Of a stretch of 42,111 bases of DNA, positions 5,169 through 10,178 are shown piece after piece. Numbering within the stretch: position 1 is the stretch's first letter; the number at the start of each line of letters is the position of its first letter. The notes under the pieces are model-generated. The model was not told the origin of the DNA. It searched no databases and saw nothing but the letters and a program-made list of their open reading frames with translations. Source of the DNA: Clostridia bacterium. Lineage in GTDB: Bacteria > Bacillota > Limnochordia > DTU080 > RSA5. Both the position numbers and the translations under genes were made by a program. The stretch covers positions 1 through 42,111 of the forward strand of contig PKEX01000047.1 in NCBI GenBank assembly GCA_002919235.1. Reading direction: 5' to 3'.

Positions 5169-6086
5169 TCAGGTGCTGAGCCGGGCGTACGCCGGCGTCC
5201 GGGACCTGCCGGACCGGGCGGCTGTACGGACCACTGCGGCGTACTCTTCGGGCGTCAGCCTTCTCGGCGACCAGGGTTTGATCGCCCGCGGCGTACCGCC
5301 GGGCCTCGGAACATCGGCCGTCGACCGCTGCCGGACCGCCGGAAGCGGTCCTTTTTCATTGCCGGCGCCGTTGAGAGACATGTGGCTTTTCCGGTGGTTC
5401 GGCTGCGTCGTGTGCACCGTCGCTCCGCCCGCTCCGTTGGACCGGTTCGCTCCGGTGGTTCCGTTGGTTCCGTGGGCCGGTGACTCCTTACTACCCAGCG
5501 CCTCGACGAACCGGATCAATCGCCCGATAAGCTCCTGCAGCGCCTGGTTTTCCTCTACCAGGTACTGCACGGCCTCCGCAAGGTCCGCGATTTGCCGCTC
5601 GAGCGAACGGTCGGGAGAGCTCCCTGGGGCCTCGACGCTCTCCGGGCTGACCTCGTTCCTTGGATTCGCGTCCTTCGGCAGGTTCGGCTCGCTTACAAAA
5701 CGCACGTCGCTCGCCGCTTTCGCCTCGCTCCCCAGGTCTGTCTCGTCTTTGAAATTTTCGTCGTGACTCGCCCCGGTTCGTCCCACTTGGGGCTCCTGTG
5801 CCGACGGCTCTTCCGTCTTCGCCGTCTCTCCGCTTGACGCCGCGCCGGAGCGGAGCTCATCGAGGAACGCCGGCAGGTTCCGGCGGACCGTCGCCAGCGA
5901 TTGTTTCTCCCGCAGCACCCAGCGGCGCACCTGGTCGAGCGCCCGGATGTGGAGCTCTTCGAAGAGCGGCCCTCCTCCGGCGTCTTGAGCGTTGCACAGC
6001 TGCGGCCGCAGGGCTTCCTCCCAAAACTGCAAGGTCGCACGGTCCAGATTAAGGCGCGCGGCGGCCTCATCCAATGTGTACGGCAT
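5169..6086 (-). CDS. MerR-type helix-turn-helix protein with coiled coil
   Basis: Protein of 305 residues. The N-terminus MPYTLDEAAARLNLDRATLQFWEE is a MerR-type winged-helix start (recognition helix plus the aromatic FW). RALDQVRRWVLREKQSLATVRRNL continues the MerR DNA-binding wing and linker. A long, charged, low-complexity middle follows. Then comes a strong coiled coil (LERQIADLAEAVQYLVEENQ and LQELIGRLIRFVEAL) and a basic, Gly/Asn/Thr-rich tail. This layout (MerR HTH, linker, coiled coil, basic tail) resembles RacA-like chromosome-anchoring or other nucleoid proteins more than a ligand-sensing MerR regulator. The HTH supports DNA binding; the cellular role is not known. A sigma-A-like promoter lies upstream, back to back with the promoter of the structured RNA. 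Confidence 0.7.
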   Translation of the reverse strand: MPYTLDEAAARLNLDRATLQFWEEALRPQLCNAQDAGGGPLFEELHIRALDQVRRWVLREKQSLATVRRNLPAFLDELRSGAASSGETAKTEEPSAQEPQVGRTGASHDENFKDETDLGSEAKAASDVRFVSEPNLPKDANPRNEVSPESVEAPGSSPDRSLERQIADLAEAVQYLVEENQALQELIGRLIRFVEALGSKESPAHGTNGTTGANRSNGAGGATVHTTQPNHRKSHMSLNGAGNEKGPLPAVRQRSTADVPRPGGTPRAIKPWSPRRLTPEEYAAVVRTAARSGRSRTPAYARLST

Positions 6087-6120
6087 GCTGATTCCTCTTC
6101 GTCATTTGTCTCACAGGGGC

Positions 6121-6150
6121 ATCGTACCATGAGTGGAAATAGTCTGTAAA
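6121..6150 (-). promoter_or_regulatory. Sigma-A-like promoter of the MerR-type gene
   Basis: On the minus strand TTTACA, an 18-nt spacer and TACGAT lie about 35 nt before the start codon. The -10 is only a partial match, so this is a reasonable but unproven promoter. Confidence 0.5.
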
Positions 6151-6178
6151 TACCGTATCGAGGCGCACCTTCGAGTCA

Positions 6179-6207
6179 TCGCCACCAGCAGCCCGTTTTG
6201 GTATACT
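6179..6207 (+). promoter_or_regulatory. Extended -10 sigma-A promoter of structured RNA 1
   Basis: TCGCCA (weak -35), a 17-nt spacer and TATACT, with a TG one base before the -10 (TGGTATACT, extended -10). The predicted start, about 6213-6215, coincides with the base of the terminal stem of the RNA below. Confidence 0.75.
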
Positions 6208-6213
6208 AAAAGC

Positions 6214-6537
6214 AGCTGCAGCTTCCGGGTCTGTGGTTGAAAGTCGATGCCAGCCGCAGGCGAAACGACCCACGTAAGGCGACCGAAAAAACACCTTCGT
6301 CGCCGAGCATGGTGCGGCTTAGTGTAAGTCCTGCCCGTTCAACGCGTGATCCACGGTCCGTGCGGTCAAGCCGCAGTGCGAACGTACAGCGCGCGAAGCG
6401 CCTTCGCCGTGTGCGTTTCACCAGTGCCTCGTTGAACGGAGAGGGCTGGCGTGGGACCGTGGAGGGACGGTCCTGCAAGAGCTCCAGCAGGCGAGTGTGG
6501 GGGCAAAGACCAGGTCAGCCGGAAGCTGCAGTTTTTT
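6214..6537 (+). ncRNA. Large structured noncoding RNA upstream of hpf, probable raiA RNA
   Basis: A roughly 320-nt gene-free unit with its own promoter and end. The 5' end (CTGCAGCTTCCGG, 6216-6228) pairs perfectly over 13 bp with CCGGAAGCTGCAG (6519-6531), followed at once by TTTTTT. Inside are a 10-bp long-range helix CCGTTCAACG / CGTTGAACGG (6335-6344 with 6430-6439) and the hairpins GGCGAC/GTCGCC (6278-6304), TGCGG/CCGCA (6361-6375) and GGACCGT/ACGGTCC (6454-6473). A helix GCTGG/CCAGC (6445-6449 with 6484-6488) encloses the last hairpin. A raiA RNA class of large structured RNAs is known upstream of raiA/hpf genes in Bacillota and Actinomycetota. Position and architecture fit that class. 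The family match itself is inferred from context; signatures of RNase P RNA, tmRNA and SRP RNA were not seen. Confidence 0.75.
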
Positions 6538-6963
6538 CGTGGGCAGCCTCTCGTTCGTGGGCAGTTTTGTCGAGCGGTCCGGGCGCGAGCACCCATGCAT
6601 CCCCGCCCTGGCCGTGCTTTCGCGCATCTCCCCCCTGTGTTGGCCATCCACGTGTGTCCTCATTGAACGAGGTCTCATGTGCAACATACAACCTCTCAGA
6701 ACACCGCCCGAATGACGCCTGAAAGCGGCCGCACCCCCGCAGCCCTGGACACACCTTGCCCACCGCCCTGGGTCAAGTGTCCCATCCGCAAGGCCGCGTG
6801 AAGGATGGGATGCACGGGCCTCCGAAGTAATCGTTACCAGACAATTGAGAGCGAGTTTGGGCACGCCGCGTGGGGAGAGGGTGCTGGCTGCACGAGCCGG
6901 CCCTTGCACGGGCGCCGGCAGCAACGCTCCCATCGCATCATCACACGTGAGAGGGGTAGTGTC
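6538..6963 (+). other. Leader region of hpf
   Basis: About 425 nt without a credible gene between the structured RNA and hpf. It contains one hairpin, CCCATCC/GGATGGG (6781-6809), and otherwise no recognised riboswitch. No convincing sigma-A promoter was found. B. subtilis hpf (yvyD) uses sigma-B and sigma-H, whose degenerate sites could be missed by eye. Confidence 0.4.
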
Positions 6964-7548
6964 GTGGCAAACAGCCAGGCGGTGCGAGTGACGGTCAAGG
7001 GGAAAAACATCGAAGTGACGCCGGCTCTGCGGGAGTATGCGGAAAAGCGGGTGGCCAAGCTCAACAAGTTTTTCACCTGGCGGCAGGACATCTCGGTCGA
7101 AGTGACGTTGAGCGTCGAACGGGACACGCACATTGCGGAGATCACGTATTCCATGGGCGGCCTGCTCATGCGGGGCGAAAGCCGCACCAAGGACCTGTAC
7201 GCCTCCATCGACGAGGCCTCCGACAAGATCGAGCGCCAGGTGCGCAGGTACAAGAACAAGCTGCAGCAGTGGGAGCACCACAGCTTGCGCAAGGGTGAGG
7301 CGGCACCGGCTGTCGCTGTGGCGGAGCGGGCGCCTGAGGAAGAGAAAGGCGAGGGAGAGACTCCCCGGGTGGTACGCACCAAGCGGTTTGCCATTAAGCC
7401 GATGGACGTGGAAGAGGCGATTCTCCAGATGGAGCTCCTCGGGCACGACTTCTTCGTGTTCGCCAACGCGGCCACCGATGAGGTGAACGTGCTTTACAAG
7501 AGGAAAGACGGCCACTACGGTTTGATCGAACCCACCCTGGAGGAATAG
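6964..7548 (+). CDS. hpf: Ribosome hibernation promoting factor, long form
   Basis: Dimerises 70S ribosomes into inactive 100S particles in stationary phase. The protein has 194 residues, the long-HPF size. The N-terminal RaiA/S30AE domain is seen in VTVKGKNIEVTPALREYAEKR and the following DLYASIDEASDKIERQVRRYKNKL helix. A charged linker leads to the C-terminal dimerisation domain (KRFAIKPMDVEEAILQMELLGHDFFVF and DEVNVLYKRKDGHYGLIEP). The GTG is chosen because GAGAGGGG lies 7 nt upstream and the family starts there; the frame is open further upstream but has no homology. The gene sits between the flagellar genes and secA-prfB, as in B. subtilis, although 14 kb of chemotaxis genes separate it from secA here. 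Confidence 0.96.
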   Translation: MANSQAVRVTVKGKNIEVTPALREYAEKRVAKLNKFFTWRQDISVEVTLSVERDTHIAEITYSMGGLLMRGESRTKDLYASIDEASDKIERQVRRYKNKLQQWEHHSLRKGEAAPAVAVAERAPEEEKGEGETPRVVRTKRFAIKPMDVEEAILQMELLGHDFFVFANAATDEVNVLYKRKDGHYGLIEPTLEE

Positions 7549-8507: not shown

Positions 8508-8748
8508 ATTGGGCCGATAGGGGTACAGGGCGTCATCCAGTGCACGACCTGGTCGACCGACCCGAGCGAAGCGGATGGGGCGCCTAGACCTAGCCGAGCG
8601 AAAGGCGCCACACCAGCAGTCGGGGGGTCTGCCATAGTGACTGCCAAAGCGCTCCGAGTGGTCCTCACCCTCGTGAGCTTGATCTTGGCCGGTGGCGCTA
8701 GCTATACCCGTGCCATGTAATTGAGATCTGTCCTATCGGCCCATTTTT
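8508..8748 (+). ncRNA. Unidentified structured RNA or leader upstream of the HD-GYP gene
   Basis: The two ends pair perfectly over 12 bp (TGGGCCGATAGG, 8510-8521, with CCTATCGGCCCA, 8732-8743), extended by ACAG/CTGT after a 3-nt bulge. TTTTT follows at once. Inside are CCAG/CTGG (8537-8552), GGCGCC/GGCGCC (8579-8609), GCAGTC/GACTGC (8616-8644), CTCAC/GTGAG (8664-8677), and AGCGC/GCGCT (8648-8652 with 8695-8699) enclosing the last one. CCGAC (8557-8561) can alternatively pair with GTCGG (8619-8623), which would break the GCAGTC stem, as in a switch. I see no cobalamin, T-box, GEMM, lysine, FMN, TPP, RNase P or SRP signature. It ends about 30 nt before the HD-GYP start, so it could be a riboswitch-type attenuator for that gene or an independent RNA. 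Confidence 0.6.
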
Positions 8749-8780
8749 GCTACGTCCGCCTTGTCAAAGGGGTCCTGCAC

Positions 8781-10178
8781 GTGGCTCGAGTCGCAATACG
8801 GAGGCCGGAGCTCTTACAGCCCGTCAACCGGAACCAGCCTTGGTACTCGTTCCTCTTCACTGGCGTCCTGTGTGCGCTCGCGTCCTTCACGCTTGTTCAA
8901 AACGACTGGCAGACCTCCGAAGGGCGCTGGCCCTTGATTCTGTTCTTCATGGGCCTTTCCGCCGCGGCCGAGATCCTTTATATCGAGCTCCCGGGGGGCA
9001 AGGGCAGGGTTTCCGCCAGTTTCGGAACCAACCTGGGAGCCGCGCTGGTGCTGGAGCCTCATGAAGCGGCGCTGGTGGCGGCAGGGGGCATCCTTATTGC
9101 CAACCTCATCGAGCGCCTGGCCGTAGACGTCATCGCCTTCAACACGTCCCAGCTCTGGCTCACCGCCTTCGCGGCCGCGCTCGTGTGGAAGGCCCTATGG
9201 CCCGCGGAGGCGCTCCTTCCCATCGAGCCCCAAGAAGTGCTAGGCGTCATGCTCCGGCTGCTGGTGGTGGGGCTCGTCTATTACGTGATCAACCTCACGC
9301 TGGTCAGCCTGAGCATGCGGCTGGCCTACGGGGTCCGCCTCCGGGAGATGGTGGCCAAGAGCGTGCTGTGGGGCATCCCGAGCCACGTGACCGTCGGGAC
9401 CCTAGGATTTCTGATCGCAGTGTTGTACCTCAACATCGGCATCTGGGGCGTCCTGCTCCTCTGGGTGCCGCTGCTTCTCGCGCGGTACGCCTTCCGGCAG
9501 TACGTGGCCATCCGCGCGGCCCACCTTGAGACCATCCAGGCGCTGGCCCTGGCGCTGGACGCCAAGGACCCCTACACGCTGGGGCATTCCGAACGGGTGG
9601 CGGAGTATGCGGAAGAAGTCGGACGCCAGATGAACCTTCCCGAAAGCGAGATCGAGCTGCTGCGGTACGCTGGAATCCTGCACGACATCGGAAAGATCGG
9701 CATCAGCGACGCAGTGCTCAACAAAGTGGGCAAGCTGACGGACGCCGAATTCCGGCTGATCCAGTCCCACACCACTATCGGTGCGAGGGTGGTCAAGCCG
9801 ATGGGCGTGCTGCGCGGCGTCTCACAGGTGATCCGCCACCATCACGAGCGCTACGACGGCCGGGGATATCCGGACGGCCTCAAAGGGGAGGAGATCCCGC
9901 TCGCGGCCCGCATCCTGGCGGTGGCCGACGCCTTCGACGCGATGACGTCGGACCGCGTCTACCGCGCGGGGCTGGCCGTGGACGAGGCGGTGGAGGAGCT
10001 GATCCGGAACAAAGGGACACAGTTCGATCCCCGGGTGGTCGACGTGTTCGTCGAGAAGGTGCTCCCCCGCAAGGTGGAGCTCACCCGCCAAGCGGCTGCC
10101 CGTCGCCAGGACCACGAGGCCCGGGAGCCTCGGGGCGATCAAGTGTGGCGCACGTTCGCCGCCGGCGACGGCGAGTGA
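8781..10178 (+). CDS. Membrane HD-GYP domain protein (probable cyclic-di-GMP phosphodiesterase)
   Basis: Protein of 465 residues. The N-terminal half is hydrophobic, with several membrane segments (for example LFTGVLCALASFTLV and LGFLIAVLYLNIGIWGVLLLWVPLLLA), and probably senses a membrane or extracellular cue. The C-terminal half is an HD-GYP phosphohydrolase. The metal-binding HD is at residues 301-302 in GILHDIGKIG, a histidine run is at 353-355, and GRGYP is at 360-364. These residues are complete, so hydrolysis of cyclic-di-GMP is expected. The GTG start has AAAGGGG 8 nt upstream; earlier in-frame starts fall inside the terminal stem of the preceding RNA and are rejected. Its place between the hibernation and chemotaxis genes suggests a part in the motile-to-sessile decision. 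Confidence 0.9.
   Translation: MARVAIRRPELLQPVNRNQPWYSFLFTGVLCALASFTLVQNDWQTSEGRWPLILFFMGLSAAAEILYIELPGGKGRVSASFGTNLGAALVLEPHEAALVAAGGILIANLIERLAVDVIAFNTSQLWLTAFAAALVWKALWPAEALLPIEPQEVLGVMLRLLVVGLVYYVINLTLVSLSMRLAYGVRLREMVAKSVLWGIPSHVTVGTLGFLIAVLYLNIGIWGVLLLWVPLLLARYAFRQYVAIRAAHLETIQALALALDAKDPYTLGHSERVAEYAEEVGRQMNLPESEIELLRYAGILHDIGKIGISDAVLNKVGKLTDAEFRLIQSHTTIGARVVKPMGVLRGVSQVIRHHHERYDGRGYPDGLKGEEIPLAARILAVADAFDAMTSDRVYRAGLAVDEAVEELIRNKGTQFDPRVVDVFVEKVLPRKVELTRQAAARRQDHEAREPRGDQVWRTFAAGDGE

Follow-up and report, generated by a model that had tools for sequence, protein, structure and literature searches.

The DNA immediately upstream of hpf in a contig from a Clostridia bacterium raises the question of whether a gene for a discrete, structured RNA lies there and, if so, to which class this RNA belongs, why it is so long, and whether it acts on its neighbor or elsewhere. 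A first-pass annotation, made from the letters of the whole 42,111-nucleotide stretch (the window), had linked the RNA by its location to the raiA class, and had proposed a search with the Rfam covariance model and a test for covariation among homologs as checks. When the window was scanned with the covariance models of all Rfam families, raiA was the only family matched at gathering thresholds:

6220-6527, forward strand: raiA RNA (Rfam RF03072), complete model 1-209, 159.4 bits

This score (E 3.6e-40) is far past the gathering cut-off of 101.3 bits, and the model positions are covered end to end. The core nucleotides are unchanged across 22 aligned raiA copies, the window copy included, homologs are found within the same family and order, and helices P1, P5, and P7 covary. 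Sequence alone could not make the assignment of 6220-6527 to the raiA class any surer, and the locus is, on this evidence, a further copy of an already described RNA class, raiA, also called ModT. Its own genome holds 1 copy. A phage origin of the locus was considered and rejected, as phage records gave no match.

Of 60 relatives searched (own genome counted), 12 gave a raiA match; all 5 other genomes searched from the same family and order had one. Phylum-wide, 48 of 398 genomes gave a match, which was past the cut-off in 35; for one class of the phylum, these numbers were 149 and 146 of 200. Two further small classes yielded raiA in 8/13 and 2/17. When named genomes were scanned with a pattern, the matches listed included extra raiA copies mixed with chance matches. 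The homologs behind the counts below come from a search with a core pattern, which located 98 records, 95 of them distinct; as this pattern missed 13 of the 41 loci L001-L041, the counts are biased toward copies with a canonical core.

The features that would mark the ends of the RNA could be read directly. An extended -10 promoter, a perfect 13-bp closing stem, and a TTTTTT end had all been claimed for this locus, and each was found in place:

6199-6207, forward strand: extended -10 element TGGTATACT, by direct reading; a -10 is co-placed in 86/94 homologs
6214-6537, forward strand: putative raiA/ModT transcript of about 324 nt, inferred to run from 6-7 nt past the -10 to the T6 end
6216-6228, forward strand: 5′ arm of P1 (consensus P1 plus outward extension), by RF03072 match, covariation, and direct reading
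6519-6531, forward strand: 3′ arm of P1, by the same three lines of evidence
6532-6537, forward strand: T6 tract, by direct reading; predicted intrinsic terminator with P1 as its stem

A promoter scan of 6050-7100 returned 2 sites, among them 6199-6207, against 0.2 expected; the -35-like TCGCCA at 6179-6184 is weak. Having a promoter of its own, which the first-pass annotation had singled out, is ordinary for the raiA class: a -10, called at 4 or more of 6 matching positions, is present in 86 of 94 copies, and the median distance from the inferred start to P1 is 6 nt. The perfect 13-bp helix has 290 nt between its arms (303 nt from arm start to arm start), and perfect inverted repeats of this length with distant arms arose in only 5 of 2000 first-order resamples of 500 nt. 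Just beyond the U tract, TTCGTGGGCAG occurs twice in direct orientation within 6535-6570, with TTTTG after the second copy; these copies belong to a weak second terminator-like site (1 found, 1.0 expected).

The RNA region as a whole was more stable than 100 of 100 shuffles (z -5.69). Its minimum-energy fold was rejected as the true fold, as it lacks the arrangement of P3 hairpin and pseudoknot of the cryo-EM structure, implying that the helices read from the raw sequence are perhaps not all right. The internal elements were placed as follows:

6252-6257, forward strand: P3 loop AGCCGC, 5′ half of pseudoknot 1, with all 6 pairs in 67/72 readable homologs
6278-6304, forward strand: helix P5 hairpin, by covariation in 85 homologs
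6314-6319, forward strand: GCGGCT, 3′ half of pseudoknot 1, in the same homologs
6330-6334, forward strand: 5′ strand of P6, CCTGC, with its partner at 6487-6491, by homolog pairing
6335-6439, forward strand: P7 domain, a 10-bp helix (6335-6344 with 6430-6439) around about 85 nt of lineage-specific sequence, by covariation
6444-6486, forward strand: P8 region, by RF03072 match and homolog pairing

The covariation test supported P1, P5, and P7. For P1, 87.4% of cells were paired versus a shuffled maximum of 56.7%, with changes on both sides at all 9 pairs (n = 95); the five pairs outside P1 reached 63.6% versus at most 44.0%. The corresponding values were 92.7% versus 65.1% for P5 (n = 85) and 85.8% versus 61.3% for P7 (n = 48), while P8 received partial support (83.3% versus 74.5%, the best of three registers tried). 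P6 is 99.6% paired and nearly invariant across homologs, and therefore yields little evidence of covariation. In the readable copies (72 of 95), the six pairs of pseudoknot 1 are kept through variants such as AGCCGT/ACGGCT, AGTTGC/GCAGCT, and AGACGC/GCGTTT; the exceptions retain 5 pairs in 3 copies and 2 pairs in 2, and look like probable misreadings by the pattern. A compact fold with pk-1 and pk-2 has been reported for raiA RNA (PMC11751092), which is described as a monomer in part of PMC12286853.

With P1 as the terminator stem, transcription would end efficiently only when folding of the RNA joins both of its ends. The whole 290-nt RNA would then form the loop, and termination would act as a folding checkpoint, a proposal that we consider tentative and rather doubtful. 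When the 5′ flank was limited to its transcribed part, the outward extension of P1 was strong in 35 of 94 copies, which are related by descent and not independent, compared with a mean of 2.0% and a maximum of 6.5% for shuffled 3′ flanks. T4 directly followed the extended arm in 12 of these 35, versus 12 of 201 windows pooled from positions further downstream (Fisher p = 1.4e-5), and this excess of U runs was absent in weakly extended copies (11/59, Fisher p = 1.0). Thirteen of the 94 copies, including that of the window, qualify as P1-fused terminators. This start-limited analysis is exploratory, because its method and thresholds were chosen after the first analysis. In that first analysis, with the 5′ flank unrestricted, an extension score of at least 5 was reached in 50/94 copies versus 9.2% of deranged ones. 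T4 came after the arm in 10 of the 50 strong cases, compared with 2-5 at positions further downstream; for all 94 copies, the numbers were 19 and 14-17. This signal is weak, and that of the start-limited analysis is sharper. A second sample comprised 31 loci, of which 26 were located and 21 distinct, nearly all from one other class. Only 1 of the 21 copies carried the extension, so that the use of P1 as a terminator is not general to the raiA family; several had a separate hairpin terminator, or T runs directly past a 9-bp P1. These patterns suggest that P1 can, in some lineages, serve as a terminator, a lineage-specific and unproven role.

The next gene on the same strand is hpf, which agrees with the placement of the RNA upstream of hpf in the first-pass annotation and leaves a 426-nt spacer after the predicted terminator:

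6964-7548, forward strand: hpf, encoding a ribosome hibernation factor of the long form, with S30AE N and C domains; it starts 426 nt after the end of the RNA

In the same taxonomic class, 10 of 11 raiA loci have a co-directional hpf downstream; at the remaining one, L180, the contig stops shortly after the RNA. Upstream, the window contains fliD, a FliT-like gene (below the Pfam cut-off), flaG, and fliS, as well as a MerR-like gene that lies on the opposite strand. ComFC was not found among the upstream ORFs scanned. Past hpf lie an unknown gene and a gene for a MASE9/HD-domain protein at 8721-10178, which we take to be of the HD-GYP type, a c-di-GMP phosphodiesterase type. Of 11 relatives, 4 also have the hpf-downstream block with this MASE9/HD protein close to the RNA. 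Because loss of ModT leads to higher c-di-GMP in C. difficile, according to passages of PMC11706538, this neighbor provides a lead, and only a lead, connecting the RNA locus to c-di-GMP.

For clostridial raiA/ModT, the same passages describe an abundant, stable, and trans-acting RNA, which is required for sporulation and timely stationary-phase entry (PMC11706538). Our analysis favors the reading that the locus is a raiA/ModT gene whose product is a discrete, roughly 324-nt RNA, with P1 and U6 at its ends, that acts in trans as cells pass from growth into stationary phase, and we consider this reading probable. Transcription by RNA polymerase carrying the main sigma factor would yield this RNA, and the closing helix P1 would hold both of its ends and form the terminator together with U6. 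Judging from the clostridial orthologs, the product would be abundant and stable, and would fold into a compact monomer organized around pseudoknot 1. Its action in trans, in which a protein partner probably takes part, would affect sporulation and c-di-GMP during this transition. The genome has 2 Spo0A_C matches and 5 GGDEF matches, so that the pathways touched by ModT elsewhere exist here as well.

Two other roles were weighed. The RNA could be a ribozyme, or could take part in RNA processing (e.g., of tRNA or 5S precursors), with its effects on growth being indirect. Such a role, which is raised in the discussion of PMC11706538, would suit the high conservation of the core positions; the portions of the raiA studies cited here report no cleavage activity, however, and we regard it as unlikely. 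The second is a cis-acting termination switch, in which sensing of a ligand would cause read-through of P1 and the U tract into hpf. The arrangement invites this idea, since hpf is the next gene on the same strand and the P1-plus-U terminator lies in between, and a simple scan found no second consensus promoter on the forward strand between 6537 and hpf. In addition, transcription termination at raiA loci is reported in part of PMC12121620, and Rfam labels RF03072 as “Cis-reg; riboswitch”. However, the spacer to hpf is long, and at 4 of the 11 loci of the same class (L181-L184), the start of hpf is 1.9-2.6 kb from the 5′ part of the RNA. Moreover, among homologous loci with downstream sequence of 1.4 kb or more, hpf was seen in just 32 of 74, a lower bound obtained with a single hpf query. 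Finally, the C. difficile deletion was rescued in trans, according to passages of PMC11706538, and parts of PMC11477304 likewise argue against a riboswitch. We consider a termination switch quite unlikely; the anatomy agrees better with the published view of a free-standing, trans-acting RNA than with an hpf-coupled riboswitch, and hpf would be a recurrent neighbor of this RNA rather than its target in cis.

As to its length, the RNA is longer than typical members, as had been suspected: its modeled span is 308 nt versus a median of 208 (range 157-344, n = 95). Only 1 of the 95 distinct homologs exceeds it, and three are at least 300 nt long; among the 200 genomes of one class, none of the 146 matches past the cut-off is longer than 285 nt. 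The window copy is long because about 90 extra nt sit in the hairpin loop of P7. The base of this domain is the perfect 10-bp helix between 6335-6344 and 6430-6439, which had been noticed as a long-range helix and proves to be P7, and two further stem-loops are predicted in its interior. Taken alone, a helix of this kind is unremarkable, since perfect 10-bp inverted repeats with distant arms were present in 168 of the 2000 resamples; it is the homology to P7 that makes it real. P7 measures 103 nt in the window, compared with 51 nt in L004, a same-family copy, and 123 nt in L008, which comes from the same order; the spread among 48 copies is 4 to 123 nt, and variability of P5, P7, and P8 has previously been reported for the class (in part of PMC11706538). 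Most probably, the large P7 is an addition at the periphery of the RNA and does not alter the core. That it is instead a separate inserted element, mobile or coding, outside the RNA is very improbable: about 90 nt of it have no counterpart in most homologs, but the covarying P7 helix encloses this extra sequence, P7 length is widely variable, up to that of L008, and the insert alone is only modestly more stable than shuffles (z -1.70).

At the other extreme are short forms of about 110-120 nt, here called mini-raiA RNAs, which were found in 19 genomes of two families:

L161-L164, L166-L173, and L189-L207: mini-raiA loci

The first 12 examined, 113-120 nt in length, came from sub-threshold matches of the phylum-wide search; the 12 that were scored reached 39-59 bits in Rfam, under the cut-off of 101.3. 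A structure partly assigned by eye shows that they retain P3a/P3b, pseudoknot 1, and a P1 that extends outward for a short distance, while the remainder is replaced by one short closing helix and a hairpin; P6-P8, the GUAAGUCCUGCC block, and the UGGGGxCAAA block are missing. Model R1, built from these RNAs and used to search 26 genomes of the taxonomic class in which they occur, gave matches in 22, of which 19, from two families, scored at least 106.9 bits and are mini forms, and 3 weaker ones, from two sister families, are full-length raiA copies. L165 is a divergent sub-threshold raiA copy of 259 nt. At the five sub-threshold loci inspected for neighbors, L161, L164, L165, L168, and L171, a gene for a two-domain treble-clef zinc-ribbon protein (Pfam PF13451 and PF23477, for the L161 copy) and not hpf directly follows the RNA, and FliD/FliS-like flagellar genes lie upstream in 4 of these 5 (by eye). 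L243 (G457), a sub-threshold raiA sequence of 105 nt that has P1 and the 3′ part, but in which P3 to P7 are missing, is perhaps a decayed copy.

The raiA/ModT RNAs are among the few widespread, highly structured bacterial RNAs that have no known biochemical role. A long copy with an enlarged P7 on one side, and natural members of about 110-120 nt lacking P6-P8 on the other, bracket the dispensable parts of the fold, and the window copy suggests that P1 can act as a terminator in some lineages.

Compared with the raiA motif/ModT as described by RF03072, the window copy shares the full model match, the core nucleotides, the long-form P1-P8 plan, and pseudoknot 1, as well as a promoter just ahead of P1 and a position upstream of hpf. 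It differs in its length (308 nt versus the median of 208), which is due to a long, branched P7, in the outward extension of P1 with U6 directly after it, and in its upstream neighbor, which is a MerR-like gene on the opposite strand; the upstream ORFs scanned did not include ComFC. With C. difficile ModT and C. acetobutylicum raiA, it has in common a free-standing gene with a sigma-A type promoter and variable P5, P7, and P8. Whereas the long form of C. difficile ModT ends at a downstream terminator, the U tract of the window copy adjoins P1.
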